NCBI GenBank assembly: GCA_903900705.1 | Contig: CAIUOG010000057.1 | Location: 62,001-126,000 of the forward strand | Direction: 5' to 3' | Length of the DNA stretch: 64,000 nucleotides | Source of the DNA: an uncultured Acidobacteriia bacterium | Lineage (GTDB): Bacteria > Acidobacteriota > Terriglobia > Bryobacterales > Bryobacteraceae | In this document: piece by piece, positions 4,720 through 60,420 of the stretch | Numbering within the stretch: position 1 is the first letter of the stretch | Layout of the letters: each line of letters begins with the position of its first letter | Position numbers and translations under genes: made by a program | Notes under the pieces: model-generated | Databases searched by the model: none | What the model was told of the DNA's origin: nothing | What the model saw: only the letters and a program-made list of their open reading frames with translations

Positions 4720-6234
4720 GTGCTCAAGACCCGCCTCCTCCATCTTTCCGCCCTCGCCGCGGCTCTCGCGTTCCGCGCGCAGGCGGACGTCACGCTGCCT
4801 GGCATTCTGACTGACCACATGGTGGTGCAGCGGGGCCGCCCCGTCCACATCTGGGGCAGGGCAGCGGCCAATGAAGCGGTGTCCGTCTCGTTCCGCGGCG
4901 AGACTCGGCAGACCACCGCCACCGCCGGCGGCCAGTGGAGCGTCTTTCTCGCCCCCGGCGAAGCGGGCGGCCCGTTCGACCTCAGCATCAAAGGCGCGAA
5001 CAGCATCGCTTTCAAATACGTGCTGGTGGGCGATGTCTGGGTGGCCTCCGGGCAGTCCAACATGGAGTTCAAACTGCAGCGCGCCGCCAACGCGCAGGCG
5101 GAGATCGCCGCCGCGAAGTATCCGAAGATCCGTCGCACCCTGCTCGCGCGCAAAGTGGCCGATCATCCGATGGATGACGCTTCCGCAACCCCCTGGGTGG
5201 ACATCAATCCCGGCAATGCGGCGGACGCCTCCGCCGTGGCTTACTTCTTCGCCCGCCATTTGCAGGAAAAGCTGGGTGGCGTGCCCATCGGCATCATCGA
5301 AAGTTTCTGGGGCGGCACGCCGGTGGAAAGCTGGATGAGCCTGCGCGGCATCAGCGAAGACCCGGCTCTGATGCCGATCTTCGGCGGCTGGGCGCGCTCG
5401 CTCGAAGCCTGGCCCACGGTGGAAGACCGCTACCAGAAACAGCTGGCGCAGTGGAACGACGCGGCGGCAAAGGCAAAGGCCGCCGGCACGAATCCTCCGG
5501 CGAAACCGGGACGTCCGGAGACCGGTCCCGGAGGCGCCTACACGCCCGCCGGCCTTTATAACGCGATGATTGCGCCCCTCACGCCGTTCGCCATTCGCGG
5601 GGCCATCTGGTACCAGGGCGAAAGCAACGCGAATCCGAATCCGAACGGCGCGTCGCTCTATGCCCGCGCCTTTCAGGGCATGATCCGGGATTGGCGCAGG
5701 GCCTGGGCAATCGGCGATTTCCCGTTCCTGTTCGTGCAGCTGGCGAACTACAAAGCCAACCCCTCCTGGCCGGAGCTGCGGGAAGCCCAGCGGGAGACGC
5801 TCTCGCTGGCCAACACCGGCATGGCCGTCACCATCGACGTGGGCAACCCCACCGACATCCACCCGACCAACAAGCAGGACGTGGGCCTGCGGCTCGCCCT
5901 CGCCGCGCGCGCCGTGGCCTTTGGCGAGAAGCTCGAATACTCCGGACCCCTCTACCGCCAGACTGTACGCGACGGCGCCGGTCTGCGCGTCTGGTTCGAT
6001 CACACCGGCGGCGGTCTGGTGGCGAAGGGCGGCGCGCTGAAGGGCTTCGAAGTAGCCGGTGTGGATCGCCGGTTTGTGCCGGCGGAGGCCCGCATCGAAG
6101 GGAATTCCGTAGTGGTCTCCGCGCCGTCTGTGGCCGCGCCTCTGCTGGTCCGCTATGCCTGGAGCGACAATCCGGAAGCCAGCCTGTATAACGGCGAAGG
6201 TCTGCCCGCGTCGCCGTTCCGGTCGCAGGAATGA
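4720..6234 (+). CDS. Sialate O-acetylesterase, SGNH/SASA family, exported
   Basis: A 504-residue protein starting at GTG 4720 with a signal peptide (basic start, hydrophobic core, Ala-rich end near residue 23). An N-terminal beta-sandwich-like segment with DHMVVQR leads to the SASA catalytic domain: the GQSNME block with the nucleophile Ser near residue 112, an IWYQGESNA block near 291, and a late D-x-x-H (IDVGNPTDIHP) near 380. By family it removes O-acetyl groups from sialic acid or other acetylated glycans outside the cytoplasm. Its TGA is inside the ATG of the Crp-type regulator (4-bp overlap), so the two are translationally coupled. Substrate may equally be an acetylated plant polysaccharide. 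Confidence 0.82.
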   Translation: MLKTRLLHLSALAAALAFRAQADVTLPGILTDHMVVQRGRPVHIWGRAAANEAVSVSFRGETRQTTATAGGQWSVFLAPGEAGGPFDLSIKGANSIAFKYVLVGDVWVASGQSNMEFKLQRAANAQAEIAAAKYPKIRRTLLARKVADHPMDDASATPWVDINPGNAADASAVAYFFARHLQEKLGGVPIGIIESFWGGTPVESWMSLRGISEDPALMPIFGGWARSLEAWPTVEDRYQKQLAQWNDAAAKAKAAGTNPPAKPGRPETGPGGAYTPAGLYNAMIAPLTPFAIRGAIWYQGESNANPNPNGASLYARAFQGMIRDWRRAWAIGDFPFLFVQLANYKANPSWPELREAQRETLSLANTGMAVTIDVGNPTDIHPTNKQDVGLRLALAARAVAFGEKLEYSGPLYRQTVRDGAGLRVWFDHTGGGLVAKGGALKGFEVAGVDRRFVPAEARIEGNSVVVSAPSVAAPLLVRYAWSDNPEASLYNGEGLPASPFRSQE

Positions 6235-6920
6235 AACTCGACGAAGCGCTGCGATCAAACCCTCTCTTCGCGGAACTCGACGCCCTGGAACTGGCGGCGC
6301 TGGCGCAACGGTCCGCCCTGCGGCACTGTGAAGCCGGCGCGCTGCTGTTCTCGGAAGGCGACGCCTGCCAGGGCCTGTTCATCGTGCTCTGCGGCCGGGT
6401 TCGCATCTTCAAGATCTCGCCGGGTGGCCGCGAACAGGTACTTACCGTGGAGGGCCCCGGAGCAACGGTCGCCGAACTCCCGGTCTTCGATGGCGGGCCG
6501 TATCCCGCCTCCGCTTCCGCCGTGGAAGTCTCCGAACTGCTGTTCCTCCCCAGGACGGGTCTGCACGCGATCTGCCTTGAACACCCGCAGGTCGCGCTCA
6601 AGCTGCTCAAGGTTGTGGGTGGACGCCTGCGGAAGCTCGTCGGCATCATCGAAGAGTTGTCATTCACCACGGTTCGCCACCGCCTGATTGCCTGGCTGCT
6701 CCGGGAGGCGAAGGCGCATGGCAAGAACACTGCGCGCGGCGTGGCGTTCTCGCTGGGCGCAAGCCATCAGGAACTGGCGGCTCACATCGGAACCGTGCGG
6801 GAACTGGTGAGCCGCAACCTGGCGCGTCTCCAGGCACAAAGCTTCATCGAGGTGAATGGCCGGGAAATCCTCATTACGGATCAGGCGGGCCTGGAAGCCG
6901 ATCTGGCCTCCGCGATTTAA
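6231..6920 (+). CDS. Crp/Fnr-family transcription regulator
   Basis: A 229-residue regulator: cyclic-nucleotide-binding-like beta barrel (about residues 10-130), a long dimer helix, and a winged HTH whose recognition region reads HQELAAHIGTVRELVSRNLARL near 178-200, with the Glu and Ser-Arg positions that in Crp/Fnr proteins contact TGTGA or TTGA half sites. Cys residues near 33, 45 and 52 do not form the Fnr [4Fe-4S] pattern. The cAMP-site residues are also not clearly conserved, so the signal is unknown; haem/NO sensing as in Dnr is possible. A TGTGA-N6-TCACT palindrome lies 10 bp downstream, ahead of the iron-sulfur repair gene, its probable target. Confidence 0.88.
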   Translation: MKLDEALRSNPLFAELDALELAALAQRSALRHCEAGALLFSEGDACQGLFIVLCGRVRIFKISPGGREQVLTVEGPGATVAELPVFDGGPYPASASAVEVSELLFLPRTGLHAICLEHPQVALKLLKVVGGRLRKLVGIIEELSFTTVRHRLIAWLLREAKAHGKNTARGVAFSLGASHQELAAHIGTVRELVSRNLARLQAQSFIEVNGREILITDQAGLEADLASAI

Positions 6921-6930
6921 TCCGCCGCGC

Positions 6931-6946
6931 TGTGACTGAAGTCACT
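6931..6946. promoter_or_regulatory. Crp/Fnr-type operator upstream of ric
   Basis: The sequence reads TGTGA CTGAAG TCACT. The core GTGACT-GA-AGTCAC is a perfect dyad with 6-bp arms and matches the TGTGA-N6-TCACA consensus of the Crp superfamily at 9 of 10 arm positions. It lies between the regulator gene (ends 6920) and the ric start (7007), about 60 bp upstream of the start, a position suited to activation or repression of the downstream genes. Binding by the adjacent regulator is inference. Confidence 0.65.
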
Positions 6947-7006
6947 GCGGCTCAGCGGTGATGCGCTCTAACCTCAGCTCAGAGGCCCTGATAACAGGAA
7001 AGAGAC

Positions 7007-7759
7007 ATGACAACCATCGCCACCCGCACCGTTCGTGAAATCGCCGTCGAAAACCCCGCCACCATCCGGGTTTTTGAGAACCTGGGAATTGACTATTGCT
7101 GTGGAGGCGGGCGCTCGCTCAGCGACGCCTGCGCACGGGCTAACGTCGGGCTGGAGAGCACTGTCGAAATGCTGCTGGAAGCGCAGCAGCCGCACCCGAC
7201 AGATGGTCCACGGCTCTGGGACGGCGCTCGTCTCTCCGTTCTCGCAAGTTACATTGAGGACGCGCACCACGGCTACGTCCGCCGCGAATCGAACCGAATC
7301 TTCGCCCTGCTCGCCAGGGTCGCCGCACGCCACGGTGATACGCACCCTGAAGTGCTGGAAGTTTCCAGCCAGTTCGCCGCCCTGCTGCAGGAACTCACCC
7401 CGCACATGATGAAAGAAGAAATTGTTCTCTTTCCCTATGTGACGAAGCTCGAAGCGCATTTTCTGGACGGAGCGCCGCTGCCTTCCGCCTGCTTCGATTC
7501 CGTCTCCCGGCCCATCGCCAACATGCTGGCGGATCACGATGACGCGGGCGCGGTGCTGGCCCGCATGCGCGAACTCTCCGGTGGCTACACCGCGCCTGAA
7601 GACGCCTGCACCACCTTCCGCGGCCTCTATCAGGCGCTCGCGGAATTTGAGCGCGACCTCCACCAGCACATTCATCTTGAAAACAACATCCTGTTCCCGC
7701 GCGCTCTGGCTTTGGAAAACGCGGTACTCAAAAGCCAATTGGCACTCCGCATGCAATAA
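7007..7759 (+). CDS. ric: Iron-sulfur cluster repair di-iron protein (Ric/ScdA/YtfE family)
   Basis: A 250-residue cytoplasmic protein. Residues 3-70 form the ScdA N-terminal domain with the DYCCGGGRSL motif (Cys31-Cys32). Residues 75-250 form a hemerythrin-like four-helix bundle with di-iron ligands visible in DAHHGY (about 84-86), the TPHMMKEE helix, MLADHD and the final HQHIHLENN helix. Family members restore Fe-S clusters damaged by nitric oxide or peroxide. An AGGA sequence (GGAAAGAGAC) precedes the ATG at a usual distance. A Crp/Fnr-type regulator gene and its likely operator lie directly upstream, and a small membrane protein and a cytochrome c follow, consistent with an NO or redox stress unit. 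Confidence 0.9.
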   Translation: MTTIATRTVREIAVENPATIRVFENLGIDYCCGGGRSLSDACARANVGLESTVEMLLEAQQPHPTDGPRLWDGARLSVLASYIEDAHHGYVRRESNRIFALLARVAARHGDTHPEVLEVSSQFAALLQELTPHMMKEEIVLFPYVTKLEAHFLDGAPLPSACFDSVSRPIANMLADHDDAGAVLARMRELSGGYTAPEDACTTFRGLYQALAEFERDLHQHIHLENNILFPRALALENAVLKSQLALRMQ

Positions 7760-55932: not shown

Positions 55933-57192
55933 ATGAAGAACCCGATGGCCCGCTCCCTCGCCGAAGCTGATCCCGCTATCCACGACCTCATCCGCAAGGA
56001 ACAGGAACGCCAGAACGGCCAGATTGAACTGATCGCCAGCGAGAACTTTACCTCCGAAGCAATTCTTGAGGCCACCGGCAGCGTCTTCACCAATAAGTAC
56101 GCCGAAGGTTACCCCGGCAAGCGCTATTACGGCGGCTGCGAGTATGCCGATGAGGTTGAAAACATCGCCCGTGATCGCGCGAAGAAGCTCTTTGGGGCGG
56201 AATACGTCAACGTCCAGCCGCACTCCGGCTCCCAGGCCAATCAGGCCGCGTTCAACGCCATCATCTCGCCCGGTGACACCATCATGGGCCTCGATCTTGC
56301 CCACGGCGGCCACCTCACCCACGGCCACAAGCTCAACTTCTCCGGCAAGACCTACAACGTCGTCGGCTATCAGGTACGCAAAGATGATGAGCGCATCGAC
56401 TTCGACCACATGGCCGAACTGGCCGACCAGCACAAGCCGAAGATGATCATCGCCGGCGGCAGCGCCTACGCCCGCCAGTGGGATTTTAAGAAGTTCCGTG
56501 AAATCGCCGATTCCGTCGGTGCCCTTCTGCTGGTCGACATGGCGCACTTCTCGGGCCTCGTCGCCGCCGGTCTGCACCCCAACCCCTGCGAATACGCCGA
56601 CGTCGTCACCTCCACCACCCACAAGACCCTGCGCGGACCCCGCTCCGGCATCATCCTCGCGAAGGAAAAGTACGGCGCGGCCATTGATCGCAACGTCTTC
56701 CCCGGCGTGCAGGGCGGCCCGCTCGTCCACGTGATTGCCGCCAAGGCCGTTTGTTTCCTCGAAGCCCTGCAGCCATCGTTCGTTGAATACCAGAAGCAGG
56801 TGATCGCCAACGCCCAGGCGCTTGCGGCCGGCATGCGGGAAGAAGGTTTCCGCGTCGTCAGCGGCGGTACCGATACCCACCTCATGCTGGTGGACGTCTT
56901 CTCGAAGGGCGTCCGCGGCAAGGAAGCCGAAAATTCGCTCGACCGCGCCCGCATTACCGTCAACAAAAACGGTATCCCGTTTGACGTGAATCCCCCGCTC
57001 AACCCCAGCGGTATCCGCCTCGGCAGCCCCGCCGCCACCACGCGGGGCTTCGGTGTGGCGGAAATGCGCGAAGTGGCCGCCTGTATCTCGGCCGTGGTCA
57101 ACGATGTGCACTCGGAAGCCGCCATCTCGGCCGTCCGCGAGCGTGTGGAGGCGCTGACCTCTCGCTTCCCCCTCTACGATTGGAAGCGCTGA
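55933..57192 (+). CDS. glyA: Serine hydroxymethyltransferase
   Basis: A 419-residue PLP enzyme. It has [37 protein letters not shown] near residues 31-67 and the Schiff-base lysine in [15 protein letters not shown] near 231. It makes glycine and methylene-tetrahydrofolate from serine. ATG 55933 is used, although ATG 55945 is possible; neither has a Shine-Dalgarno site. TAAAAT at 55912-55917 lies about 16 bases before the ATG, so a very short leader is likely. It diverges from dnaK. Confidence 0.95.
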
Positions 57193-57210
57193 CCCCGTGA
57201 GGTTTCGGTT

Positions 57211-58374
57211 GTGAGGATTGCGATCGACGTCCGCCGCATTCGCGATTTCGGCGTCGGCACCTACATCCGAAACCTCCTGCAGGCCCTCGCCACCCTCGGC
57301 ACGCCCCACGACTACCATCTCATCTGCAATACCGCTGACAAAACGCAGTTCGCGGGTCTGCCCCGTAACTTCCATACCGTCATCTATAACCGGCGGGACG
57401 CCTCACGGCTCGATCACATCGAACTGCCCCGCCTGATCCATGGCCTCCGTCCGGACGTCACCCACATCCCCTTCCACCGCGTCCCGCTGCTGATGCCGAA
57501 GCCGTACGTTGTCACCATCCACGATCTGAGCAGCCTCTACTTCGACGATGCCACCGGGTTGCTGCATGGCGCGCATATCTTCCGCCTCCGCCGTGGCCTC
57601 GAACGCGCCGCGCGCATCATCACGGTCTCCGGCGCAACCGAGCGCGACGTGGCGAACCTCGTGCCCTCCGCCCGCGATCGTATCCGGCTGATCCACAACG
57701 CGCCGGACCCGCAGTTCATGGAGCGCAAGCTCCCCTCAGACGCCCGCGCCGCCGGTCCCGAAGCGGCCGCCAGAGAGCGCCACCGTATTCTGGAGCGTTA
57801 CCAGATTCGTTATCCGTTTCTGCTGTACGCCGGTTCCATCCGGCCGCAAAAGAACATTCCGCGCCTCATCGAAGCTTTTGCCGTCGCCCGGAGTTCGCTC
57901 GAAAACCATCCTGTTTACAAGGACTTGCGGCTGATAATCATCGGAGACGAAATCTCCCGCCACCCCAACGTCCGCCGCGCCGTCATCCAGAGCCGCGTGG
58001 AAAATTGCGTTCGGTTCCTGGGCTTTATCCCGTTCGACACCCTGCGCATCTTCCACGAGCTCGCCGTCGCCTTCGTTTTTCCGTCGCTCTATGAAGGTTT
58101 CGGCCTGCCGCCGCTTGAAGCCATGGCCTCGGGAACGCCGGTCATCTCCTCGTCGGTCAGTTCCCTGCCCGAGGTCGTGGGTGGCGCGGCTATGCTGGTC
58201 AATCCGGAAAATGTTTTCGATATCGCCCGGGGGATTACCGAGGTTCTCACCAATGACGAACTGCGCGAGCGGATGATCGTGGCGGGCCGCAAACAGGCCG
58301 CGAGCTTCAGCTGGCCCCGCACCGCGCGCGAAGTGCTGGAACTCTACGAAGAAGTCGCCGCCGGGACGAACTAA
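57211..58374 (+). CDS. GT-B glycosyltransferase, family 4
   Basis: A 387-residue enzyme starting at GTG 57211, with GAGG-type spacing 18 bp after glyA. The N-terminal half opens with IAIDVRRIRDFGVGTYIRNLL and contains VVTIHDLSSLYF. The donor-binding half has LLYAGSIRPQKNIPRLIEAF near 205-224 and the EX7E motif in EGFGLPPLEAMASGTPV near 294-310. It transfers a nucleotide-activated sugar to a glycan acceptor at the cytoplasmic face. Acceptor and sugar are unknown; no glycan cluster is adjacent. Confidence 0.88.
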   Translation: MRIAIDVRRIRDFGVGTYIRNLLQALATLGTPHDYHLICNTADKTQFAGLPRNFHTVIYNRRDASRLDHIELPRLIHGLRPDVTHIPFHRVPLLMPKPYVVTIHDLSSLYFDDATGLLHGAHIFRLRRGLERAARIITVSGATERDVANLVPSARDRIRLIHNAPDPQFMERKLPSDARAAGPEAAARERHRILERYQIRYPFLLYAGSIRPQKNIPRLIEAFAVARSSLENHPVYKDLRLIIIGDEISRHPNVRRAVIQSRVENCVRFLGFIPFDTLRIFHELAVAFVFPSLYEGFGLPPLEAMASGTPVISSSVSSLPEVVGGAAMLVNPENVFDIARGITEVLTNDELRERMIVAGRKQAASFSWPRTAREVLELYEEVAAGTN

Positions 58375-58380
58375 CAGTAT

Positions 58381-58926
58381 CTAAAGCAGTTCCTGCAACT
58401 CGCCGATAAAGAAGTCCGTGTTCACTTCGCCAGAGCCGTACGTGCGGTTTTCAAAAAAGTACCACTTGCCGCCCGCGCCTTCCGGGCAGTAGAAAATGGA
58501 TTTCTCCCCCACCGTGTTGTGCGTCAGGAAGTCCTGGTTAAAGGAGCGCACCGTCCCGAACAGCACGTAGGGCCGCCGAAATTCCTCTTTGGAGTAAAGT
58601 TCTTCAGTCGCCTCAAACTCCAGTTGCAGCAGCCGCCCGCGCAGGTTGATCTGGAACAGCCCGGGCACTCCGTCGTTGAAGTGCTCTGCCCGGTAATCCG
58701 CCGGGTCCAGCACCACCGCCGGACTCGTCAGCTTTCCGTTCAGCGCTTCCGTGAACTCCCGGCACAGGGCGTGCAACGCCACCGCGCCTTCAATCCGTAA
58801 CCGGTCCACCCGTGAACTCTCGCTCAAGAGGTTCTGATCGCGCTCCCCCAGCAGTTCAATCGCCCGGGCGAGCTTCGTCAGCCGGTCCGTACGGTTCTTT
58901 TTCCATCTCTCGGCCAATCCAAACAA
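58381..58926 (-). CDS. Unrecognised 181-residue protein
   Basis: Starts at TTG 58926, supported by TGAGGG six bases upstream, and overlaps the end of the upstream HTH gene by 71 bp, so it is probably translationally coupled to it. The N-terminus is basic and helical (about 1-60); the rest looks like mixed alpha/beta with many aromatic residues (YFFENRTYGSGEVNTDFFIGEL near the end). No catalytic motif, signal peptide or TM segment is visible. I do not recognise the family. Its position suggests it works with, or is regulated by, the HTH protein. Confidence 0.6.
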   Translation of the reverse strand: MFGLAERWKKNRTDRLTKLARAIELLGERDQNLLSESSRVDRLRIEGAVALHALCREFTEALNGKLTSPAVVLDPADYRAEHFNDGVPGLFQINLRGRLLQLEFEATEELYSKEEFRRPYVLFGTVRSFNQDFLTHNTVGEKSIFYCPEGAGGKWYFFENRTYGSGEVNTDFFIGELQELL

Positions 58927-59551
58927 CGCGCGCCCTCACTACTTCCAGAATATTCCTGCCCTGCACGGAAACCGGCTGCCATTTTTGGGGATCGTGAACC
59001 ACATGCTCACCCGGCAGATACACATGCGTGCCTCCCACCCGAACGTAACGGACCCGCGGACCGCCCTTCTCCATTACAACCCAGGTTCCCCGCCCGCCGG
59101 GCCGCGCCCGGACCGCCGGATTCTGATCGAGCAGCACCAGGTCGTTCGCCGACAACGCCGCCGGCAAATGCAGATCCTGCGCCAGTCGTGCCGCCACCGG
59201 CTGCACCAGACCCTCCACCAGCGAAACCGGAAACGGGATATATCCCCGAAAGTCGGAAAAAGACGGCTCGAAGCCCGGACCAATTCGCGCTCGCAATGCC
59301 GGTACCGCGCGAATCCCCGCTTGGTTTTCCCCCGGATAATGCCACAGCAATTCGGGAATAGTCAGGCGCAGCGCCCGCATCAGCCGGTCCGCCGAACCCG
59401 GCGACAGCATGCGGATGTTCTTGAGCACATTATGCATGTGCGGCTGGGACATATCACAGAGCCGGGCCAGGCCGCGCTCCGTAACCTCGCCCGACCGGAC
59501 CCGCATTCGCGCGGACTCCAGCAGGCGGTTGTACACATCCTCGATGTACAT
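58856..59551 (-). CDS. HTH regulator with S24-peptidase-like C-terminal domain
   Basis: A 231-residue protein. Residues 20-70 look like a helix-turn-helix (VTERGLARLCDMSQPHMHNVLKNIRMLSPGSADRLMRAL). Residues about 125-220 resemble the LexA/CI C-terminal beta fold (ANDLVLLDQ, GTWVVMEKGG, VRYVRVGGTHVYLPGEH, VVRARVVWIGREM) but I see no matching catalytic Ser-Lys pair, so it is probably a sensor or dimerisation domain and not self-cleaving. The start ATG at 59551 lies 10 bp from a 14-bp-arm palindrome, a likely autoregulatory site. It reads away from the CxxC/HTH gene at 59779. Assignment of the C-terminal fold is inference. Confidence 0.65.
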   Translation of the reverse strand: MYIEDVYNRLLESARMRVRSGEVTERGLARLCDMSQPHMHNVLKNIRMLSPGSADRLMRALRLTIPELLWHYPGENQAGIRAVPALRARIGPGFEPSFSDFRGYIPFPVSLVEGLVQPVAARLAQDLHLPAALSANDLVLLDQNPAVRARPGGRGTWVVMEKGGPRVRYVRVGGTHVYLPGEHVVHDPQKWQPVSVQGRNILEVVRARVVWIGREMEKEPYGPADEARPGD

Positions 59552-59560
59552 CGGGTGGAT

Positions 59561-59591
59561 TTCCCCCTATTTCCACCGGAAATAGGGGGAA
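59561..59591. promoter_or_regulatory. 14-bp-arm palindrome between the two divergent regulators
   Basis: TTCCCCCTATTTCC, a 3-base centre, and GGAAATAGGGGGAA are perfect complements. The minus-strand copy TAGGGGGAA is also the ribosome binding site of the HTH gene starting at 59551. Alternative pairing GGTGG (59577-59573) with CCACC (59558-59554) on that strand would expose the same site in a loop. Confidence 0.75.
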
Positions 59592-59778
59592 CCATCTTTT
59601 TACCATACAGTGGTATTCCCCTGGGTCCGGTAGTACTGGAACTAGCCGAAACTTGGGGGTTTACCTGGGGCATCCGTAGAATTCCGAAATGGAATGAATT
59701 GCACAAAACACCAAAATGCGAGAAATTCTGAACAGAAACCGGGCGTGGTTTTTTACACAAATCCGGGAGGAGCAATTT
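59592..59778. other. AT-richer intergenic region with promoter-like elements
   Basis: This region has a lower GC content than its neighbours. TACCA-N5-TGGTA (59601-59615) and ATTCC-N5-GGAAT (59681-59695) are small dyads. TTGGGG (59653) and TAGAAT (59677) with 18 bp between could be a plus-strand promoter. GGGAGGAG at 59765-59772 is the ribosome binding site of the next gene. No separate gene seen. Confidence 0.45.
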
Positions 59779-60360
59779 GTGAGTTTTGAGTGGAACCGTT
59801 CAGAAGTTTTAGGTCTTGCAAAAGAATCGTGCACGCATTGCCGGGGTTTCGGACTGCGTCGCAGCAAGGGTGGGCCCGCCGTGCCCTGCCCGTGTGTGTT
59901 GAGGGCCGTTTTTCGGGCCTGTTTCAATAAGTTCCGGGAATGCGCTTCGCAGGAAAAGTACATTTCCAGGGTCCGGCTTGAACAGGTCCACGGCACCGAT
60001 CGCCGTCAGACGTGGGGCATGAAAGACGAAGAATATATGGTCGACTTTTGCAATATTGCCACCCGTACTCTCGACGAGAATCAGCACCGTATTTTCCGGT
60101 TTCATTTTCTGCTGGGCGCGGATTGGAAGCTCTGCTGCCGCCGGCTGAACATGGATCGCGGAACCTTCTTCCATGAGGTCTACCGGATTCAGCAGCGCCT
60201 TGGCCGGGTCTTCCGTGAACTCCAGCCGTACGCTCTTTTCCCGCTGGACGAATACTTCGGGGGCACGGTTCGGAGTCAGTCCGTCAAGAACAACCTGTTA
60301 CAAATGCCGGCGCCGCCCCGCCGGAACAGCCTCCAGCCACCCCTGAGGAAAGTCGCCTAG
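59779..60360 (+). CDS. CxxC zinc-finger-like protein with sigma-region-4-like HTH, unrecognised
   Basis: A 193-residue protein. GTG 59779 is chosen because GGGAGGAG lies six bases upstream; the frame is open from 59716 but without a ribosome binding site. The N-terminus has CTHCRGFGLRR near 18-28 and CPC near 36-38, a DnaJ-finger-like metal site. Residues about 112-160 (TLDENQHRIFRFHFLLGADW, then RRLNMDRGTFFHEVYRIQQRLG) look like a sigma-70 region 4 or phage-type HTH. The C-terminus is Pro/Arg-rich. It is divergent from the S24-like regulator, shares the palindrome region and ends before a terminator. Function is unknown; a DNA-binding activator is the best guess. Confidence 0.65.
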   Translation: MSFEWNRSEVLGLAKESCTHCRGFGLRRSKGGPAVPCPCVLRAVFRACFNKFRECASQEKYISRVRLEQVHGTDRRQTWGMKDEEYMVDFCNIATRTLDENQHRIFRFHFLLGADWKLCCRRLNMDRGTFFHEVYRIQQRLGRVFRELQPYALFPLDEYFGGTVRSQSVKNNLLQMPAPPRRNSLQPPLRKVA

Positions 60361-60380
60361 GCAAACTTTGTGAGGACCAG

Positions 60381-60420
60381 AACGCCGCCGGCCTCGTCTG
60401 CCGGCGGCGTTTTTCTTTTC
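60381..60420 (+). terminator. Rho-independent terminator after the CxxC/HTH gene
   Basis: AACGCCGCCGGC (60381-60392) and GCCGGCGGCGTT (60400-60411) are perfect complements around a 7-base loop, followed by TTTTCTTTTC. It begins 20 bp after the stop codon. Confidence 0.92.

Follow-up and report, generated by a model that had tools for sequence, protein, structure and literature searches.

A divergent gene pair with phage kinship as a candidate switch of a gene-transfer-agent-like cluster in Bryobacterales

Ogr and Delta are late activators, and they offer one comparison for the regulatory protein described here. The antiterminator Q, a late-gene regulator of phages that acts on RNA polymerase, offers another (PMC7171158 and PMC6606751, in the excerpts available). 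GafA is the activator of the Rhodobacter capsulatus gene transfer agent (GTA), and the available excerpts of PMC9638019 describe a DnaA-like N-terminal region and DUF6456-type homologues for it. In the Acidobacteriota, proviruses linked to Bryobacterales have been reported (PMC11924767, excerpted). A limited literature search that excluded subscription papers found no report of a GTA-like element in this phylum (excerpts of PMC5900883, PMC6172770 and PMC12142844 included).

We analyzed a 64-kb stretch (the window; G000:C57:62001-126000) of the 6.1-Mb genome of an uncultured Acidobacteriia bacterium. A sequence-only reading had described three genes, a palindrome and a terminator in the window, and we found all of them in place (Table 1). 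We call the genes A, B and C; none of the three has a significant family in Pfam, NCBIfam or PHROGs. B had been described as an overlapping, unrecognized partner of A, and it does overlap A, by 71 nt. The start of C was set at a GTG (59779), which matches the M-x-W start of its relatives (8 of 160 loci, with no start or no CxxC, were dropped from this comparison); an ATG at 59716 lies upstream in the same frame. The palindrome is a perfect inverted repeat with 14-nt arms (59561-59574 and 59578-59591) around a 3-nt loop, and the terminator-like hairpin has arms at 60381-60392 and 60400-60411, followed by a T run. Lower GC had been noted for the divergent gene and the region upstream of it. This holds, GC being 0.572 in C (GC3 0.68) and 0.476 in the A-C gap against a mean of 0.624 for the window (sd 0.030 per 600 bp), but C lies only ∼1.7 sd below the mean, a moderate difference.

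Table 1. Features of the A/C locus and its conserved neighbors (positions within the window).
Feature	Coordinates	Strand	Description
Conserved host neighbors	55933..58374	+	glyA-type SHMT 55933-57192; glycosyltransferase 57211-58374
Gene B	58381..58926	-	181-aa accessory protein, long helix and beta sheet; overlaps the end of A
Gene A	58856..59551	-	231 aa, XRE/CI-type HTH and S24-like domain without catalytic dyad; probable repressor
Palindrome	59561..59591	.	Probable operator of A; core CTATTTC-N5-GAAATAG at 59567-59585
Gene C	59779..60360	+	193 aa, CxxC...CxC and sigma-region-4-like HTH; probable transcription regulator common to phages
Intrinsic-terminator-like hairpin and T run	60381..60420	+	3' of C; T run read from sequence

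The A copy of the window had no match in a Pfam search. Among six relatives scanned, one passed the HTH_31/HTH_3 cut-offs and four matched Peptidase_S24 below cut-off (best 23.1 versus 23.3 bits). The alignment of A proteins is in line with an HTH plus S24-like architecture, and a profile search against the PDB gave weak HTH matches only. Read by eye, an alignment of 26 A proteins shows the S24 catalytic Ser in 2 and the Lys in 1; the A of G057, a genome of another family, retains both. The copy of the window has neither, which agrees with the sequence-only description of an S24-like, apparently non-catalytic C-terminus. A is probably a repressor of the S24 type whose cleavage residues have been lost. 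It would resemble the CI/LexA-type S24 repressors in its HTH and apparent S24-like domain, its probable palindromic operator and its divergent partner gene; unlike them, it lacks the catalytic dyad in nearly all relatives, and beside this long form a short form, the HTH alone, occurs in several lineages (six loci with A dropped out of this survey, the script finding no start or motif in them). No relative of A was found in the IMG/VR viral scan.

The palindrome core has a single exact copy in the source genome, at A/C. When up to 3 mismatches were allowed, the window held 1 match versus 0.78 expected. Because loose matches are about as frequent as expected, the operator claim rests on the perfect site and its conservation. 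Absence of the palindrome from homologous loci had been named as evidence against the sequence-only reading. In fact, 55 of the 59 A/C gaps examined held a site that differs at no more than 3 of 14 positions, and 45 of these 55 sites lie 4–36 bp from the start of A. The ATTTC and GAAAT blocks are nearly invariant, and the half site towards C is the stricter one. Base changes are uncompensated, which rules out an RNA hairpin and argues for a DNA site.

We then compared loci whose sequence extends 700 bp or more upstream of C (73 of 78 genome loci and 67 of 74 viral loci). A divergent A was found in 62 of the 73 genome loci and a site with at most 2 mismatches in 49 of them; 6 of the 62 loci carrying A had no site within 3 mismatches. 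All 11 loci that lack A at the same place also lack the site (none within 3 mismatches in 700 bp; best at least 5 in 190 bp), and a TTGAC element upstream of C is retained in all 11. Where A is present, this element is frequent ∼80–110 bp upstream of C (43 occurrences over 59 gaps), and the operator lies at A, far upstream of it. The palindrome is probably the operator of A. A may also repress C, but the distance between operator and TTGAC element counts against such control.

Do operator-like sites occur elsewhere? In the source genome they were in no clear excess (18 sites with at most 2 mismatches versus 14 in a reversed control), and the one-mismatch site at C140:8483 falls, by eye, inside a rhodanese-like ORF. 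In 37 relatives we counted 39 sites with at most 1 mismatch, and 17 in the control. A/C accounts for 16 of the 39 and a repeat of genome G006 for 7; the remaining 16 are at the control level. A wider A regulon was rejected on these counts. The G006 sites (L121-L127; contigs C10, C11, C23, C29, C37 and C39) are seven exact copies of the operator core at contig ends; in L124 the core adjoins a stretch that, by eye, resembles the end of a resolvase gene, and a repeated transposon may carry it. In G019, two copies of a repeat of more than 100 bases (L128 and L129) hold an imperfect operator-like palindrome outside A/C.

Protein C had been read as a CxxC finger joined to a sigma-region-4-like HTH, with structure prediction of the 59779 product proposed as a check. 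The model is confident (pLDDT 89.6), and PDB comparisons support the description: residues ∼82–147 resemble sigma region 4, which fills the best-ranked rows (Z up to 8.4; several rows at 1.1–2.5 Å over 55–70 residues). C18, C21, C37 and C39 are invariant across 100 aligned relatives (of 149 C proteins, after an identity filter), and G23, G25 and many HTH residues are also kept. The model found no Foldseek match at E≤0.001 in the PDB; the sole strong structure match was an uncharacterized phage protein (BFVD A0A6J5LCE3), near full-length, at E 1.7e-10 and 29% identity. By sequence, C matched no solved structure in a PDB profile search, no Pfam (E≤1) or NCBIfam model, no PHROG below E 0.3, nothing in INPHARED at E≤0.01 and nothing in the 2023 PADLOC catalog. 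As modeled, C carries a sigma-region-4 fold, and its Cys residues would bind zinc.

Like GafA, as described in the excerpts, C is a chromosomal regulator with a sigma-like DNA-binding region that lies apart from the structural cluster and is kept in an order. Unlike GafA, it has a CxxC/CxC N-terminus and a divergent partner of the S24 type, and its phage relatives are encoded among packaging genes. The lack of any Pfam match to C gave no sign of kinship to the GafA family, with its DUF6456-type, DnaA-like N-terminus. C is best read as analogous, not homologous, to GafA, which would be its nearest functional analogue. C compares with Q in its proposed work, late-gene regulation on RNA polymerase as the Q excerpts describe it. 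As for differences, C has no PDB sequence match and resembles sigma region 4; the Q fold was not among the listed PDB structure matches of C, though some likeness to Q is conceivable.

Among 61 related genomes, C matched in 40 and A in 39, usually as single copies. Where contigs allow, the common order is glyA - glycosyltransferase - [B] - A - C, mostly at one chromosomal place; the 11 loci without A retain the glycosyltransferase next to C, and 10 of them glyA too. In a phylum sample, C was present in 3 of 297 genomes, all of the family of the source genome. Thus, conservation beside the same neighbors, which had been held to count against the sequence-only reading if found across the phylum, is largely seen over the family but not over the phylum. 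The best 80 of 192 C relatives in named genomes nearly all carry the titles Bryobacterales, Bryobacteraceae, Solibacteraceae/Solibacter, Sulfopaludibacter, Acidobacteriaceae, Acidobacteriia/Terriglobia or Acidobacteriota; one MAG among these 80 is titled Bordetella and is probably mislabeled. We accordingly take the source genome to be a probable member of the Bryobacterales. The pN/pS values of A, B and C (0.21–0.52, versus 0.09–0.36 for four neighbors, with synonymous sites near saturation) show that the three genes are under purifying selection.

B is restricted to the genus of the source genome and some related genera: it is an accessory gene and no fixed part of the A/C unit, contrary to the notion of a three-gene unit. 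It had no Foldseek match at E≤0.001 and no relative in the IMG/VR scan. Its predicted fold showed a frataxin-like arrangement at Z 7.2–7.3. A frataxin-like assignment was rejected, these values being under the trusted range and Mediator chains scoring equally high.

The IMG/VR scan found 104 viral contigs that encode C relatives; of the best 80, 31 exceed 30 kb. Genes for TerL, portal, protease or the prophage protein p717 lie near C in 51 of these 80 loci, on the strand of C in the rows shown. The packaging modules differ: TerLa with p717 in 28 loci, TerLb in 8, portal in 7, TerLc in 6, protease in 1 and p717 alone in 1, with none found in 29. A sigma factor, TerL and C are often grouped. Among phages of these hosts, one lineage (L081, L083 and many viral loci) has the sigma factor upstream of the large terminase and C after it, and viral contig L131 carries two adjacent C-like genes (6001-7441) with 57% and 41% identity to C. 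Neither a divergent A nor an operator was found in any of the 67 viral loci with enough upstream DNA, and no operator with at most 2 mismatches in any of the 80.

In a tree of 81 C proteins, which left out most long-branched viral C, viral rows were interspersed with chromosomal ones; the label changed 14 times, and starred branches force at least 9 of these changes. A single viral clade appeared in 0% of bootstrap trees, and a single chromosomal clade was rejected (p 3.7e-6). A quick tree of 146 C proteins showed the same mixing, with only 3 viral label changes forced. Viral C proteins are often on long branches nested in host clades. These trees suggest repeated exchange of C between hosts and phages, probably from host to phage, a direction to be read with the long branches and a root that is not set.

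A terminase search led to a cluster of head and tail genes in the source genome, at about 2.6-16.4 kb of another contig (G000:C92; L293); its 13 genes are collinear and span ∼14 kb. It encodes TerL, portal (phrog_145, 1e-56), scaffold, major capsid (phrog_283, 9e-43), tail tube (Pfam Phage_tube_2), a GTA spike-fiber domain protein and a 1318-aa J-like protein. GTA_spike_fiber (NCBIfam) matched at 6e-16, above cut-off, and GTA_megatron at 0.0012, with 16.7 bits versus a cut-off of 800. No integrase or replication gene was recognized in the cluster, where several genes are without a name. Host genes flank it on both sides, an M16 peptidase and a Wzt-type ABC gene in the annotation of the genome itself. 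An earlier search with p717 had matched 1 of 41 genomes; the resulting "no GTA" reading was dropped, as the terminase search showed a different cluster. A Pfam portal search matched 3 of 21 genomes and missed the portal of this cluster.

The order of the cluster is identical in 33 genome stretches, as far as contigs reach. TerL matched at ≥49% identity in 37 of the 61 related genomes and at any level in 39. In Mantel comparisons with SHMT, limited to genomes whose genes lay on fetched stretches, TerL gave r 0.862 (16 genomes) and capsid r 0.881 (14 genomes), values reached in 0 of 2000 permutations; GT as control gave r 0.927 and C r 0.640 (19 genomes each). The cluster is inherited vertically with the host phylogeny, and C follows the host tree less well. 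In the phylum sample, strong capsid matches occurred in 2 of 297 genomes, both of the source genome's family, with 2 further weak matches. At least 461 IMG/VR contigs encode the cluster capsid. The best 80 are all ≤17,761 bases and all collinear with the cluster, and none carries A or C, which fits a domesticated element unable to replicate itself, although fragmentary assembly may contribute.

The best reading of the gene content is a domesticated GTA-like element, and particles would then form and transfer DNA. The cluster is like RcGTA-type agents in being a small, vertically inherited set of head-tail genes without recognized integration or replication genes, and one of its proteins passes the cut-off of the GTA spike-fiber model. 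It differs in its phylum and in a megatron score far below cut-off.

We asked how A/C relates to this cluster. Scored with TerL at ≥49% identity, the 61 genomes comprise 36 with both C and TerL, 4 with C only (G027, G028, G049 and G053), 1 with TerL only (G017) and 20 with neither (Fisher p 3e-11, uncorrected for kinship); the association may come from shared ancestry alone. In G027 C is apparently frameshifted, and in G053 A has an internal stop and the HTH of C lacks the usual residues. G028 and G049 look intact, and G231, from the phylum sample, has C without a strong capsid match. Physical linkage was seen in one genome only: in G057, A(-), C(+), TerL(+), portal and the rest adjoin, with C and TerL in the same direction. 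We read this order as ancestral, with the switch separated from the cluster later, one genome being thin evidence.

A 28-nt motif lies upstream of TerL (≥17 bits in 30 of 33 stretches; log-likelihood 486 versus 136–164 in eight shuffled runs, which had fewer restarts). Upstream of C it is at most weak: 7 of 58 gaps reach ≥10 bits, fewer than the 14 of 58 that do so when the best of five shuffles per gap is taken. In the 80 viral C loci it reached ≥18 bits in 3 on the strand of C, in 1 on the other strand and in 0 shuffles; the copy at position 7829 of contig L193, which bears a viral C, scores 35.3 bits and exceeds every cluster site. In 37 relatives a pattern of it occurred at 19 places and nowhere in the reversed control; the cluster accounts for 4 of the 19, and the others lie before groESL and diverse genes. 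It was absent from 14 genomes of other families, of which 3 have C and 11 lack it, and present twice in G017, where C was not found. Given these sites at host genes, groESL included, and its presence in G017, the motif is not assignable to C and was rejected as its site. It may be the site of a wider regulator, perhaps a promoter class tying the cluster to stress genes. The groESL copies (L333 and L335; G001 and G018) lie, by eye, near a CIRCE-like repeat, and two other recurrent genes are also preceded by the motif (L334, L336, L340, L342, L345).

We consider it reasonably probable that A/C is the chromosomal repressor/activator switch of the domesticated GTA-like cluster, split from it in most lineages. 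A would bind the single operator at its own start and so determine how much A is made and, by a direct or an indirect route, how much C. C, with its zinc-type, Cys-rich region and sigma-region-4 domain, would act with RNA polymerase at the cluster promoter, and its phage relatives probably act likewise among their packaging genes. That C would activate the cluster is suggested by their co-occurrence and their adjacency in G057. What we observed by computation is operator conservation and its absence without A, the fold of C, phage kinship, the make-up of the cluster, host-like inheritance, co-occurrence and adjacency in G057. The sequence-only view of a divergent CI-like/activator-like switch with its own operator, phage kinship and a domesticated state was, in our judgment, right; its "self-contained" and "small mobile" unit was not, A/C lying at the same place over a family and its likely target elsewhere in the genome.

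Could A/C be an ordinary host switch with other targets, whose C was taken up by phages and which shares the distribution of the cluster by common descent? The host-like inheritance of A and C, the long-branched viral C inside host clades and the motif-bearing host promoters, groESL among them, would fit. However, several different kinds of phage packaging module have a relative of C among their genes, and A-C heads the cluster in G057, so we find this unlikely. We give slightly less credence to an immunity or interference factor, that is, a phage late regulator kept under A whose product would compete with the C that infecting phages bring in and so interfere with late genes of those phages. 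C is indeed common to phages, viral C is nested in host clades and a single chromosomal clade is rejected; C also looks monocistronic, with its own terminator, and exists without the cluster. Against this, the 2023 PADLOC catalog gave no match, C is coupled to the cluster in presence and, in G057, in position, and the Cys and most HTH positions of C are kept.

A remnant of a decayed prophage, or the small mobile regulatory unit of the sequence-only reading, is very improbable. An S24-type repressor facing a phage-type regulator and the lower GC of C and the gap speak for it, but the single chromosomal place across a family largely refutes it and rules out a mobile cassette; the genes are under purifying selection, and no mobility gene was found by Pfam among identified neighbors within the window.

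Returning to the switch of a GTA-like cluster, a bolder version is conceivable, though we would not quite wager on it: Bryobacterales would hold an ancient GTA with a master switch derived from a prophage immunity region that had split off, the switch consisting of an S24-type repressor without proteolysis and a new Cys-rich/sigma-region-4 late activator, and phages with several packaging modules would repeatedly take or exchange the activator and set it among their own packaging genes. If true, a widespread soil phylum gains a GTA-like element and its regulator, and the operator and activator candidates make particle production testable. The C family would then join host and phage late-gene control, as a domesticated control gene repeatedly exchanged with active phages.
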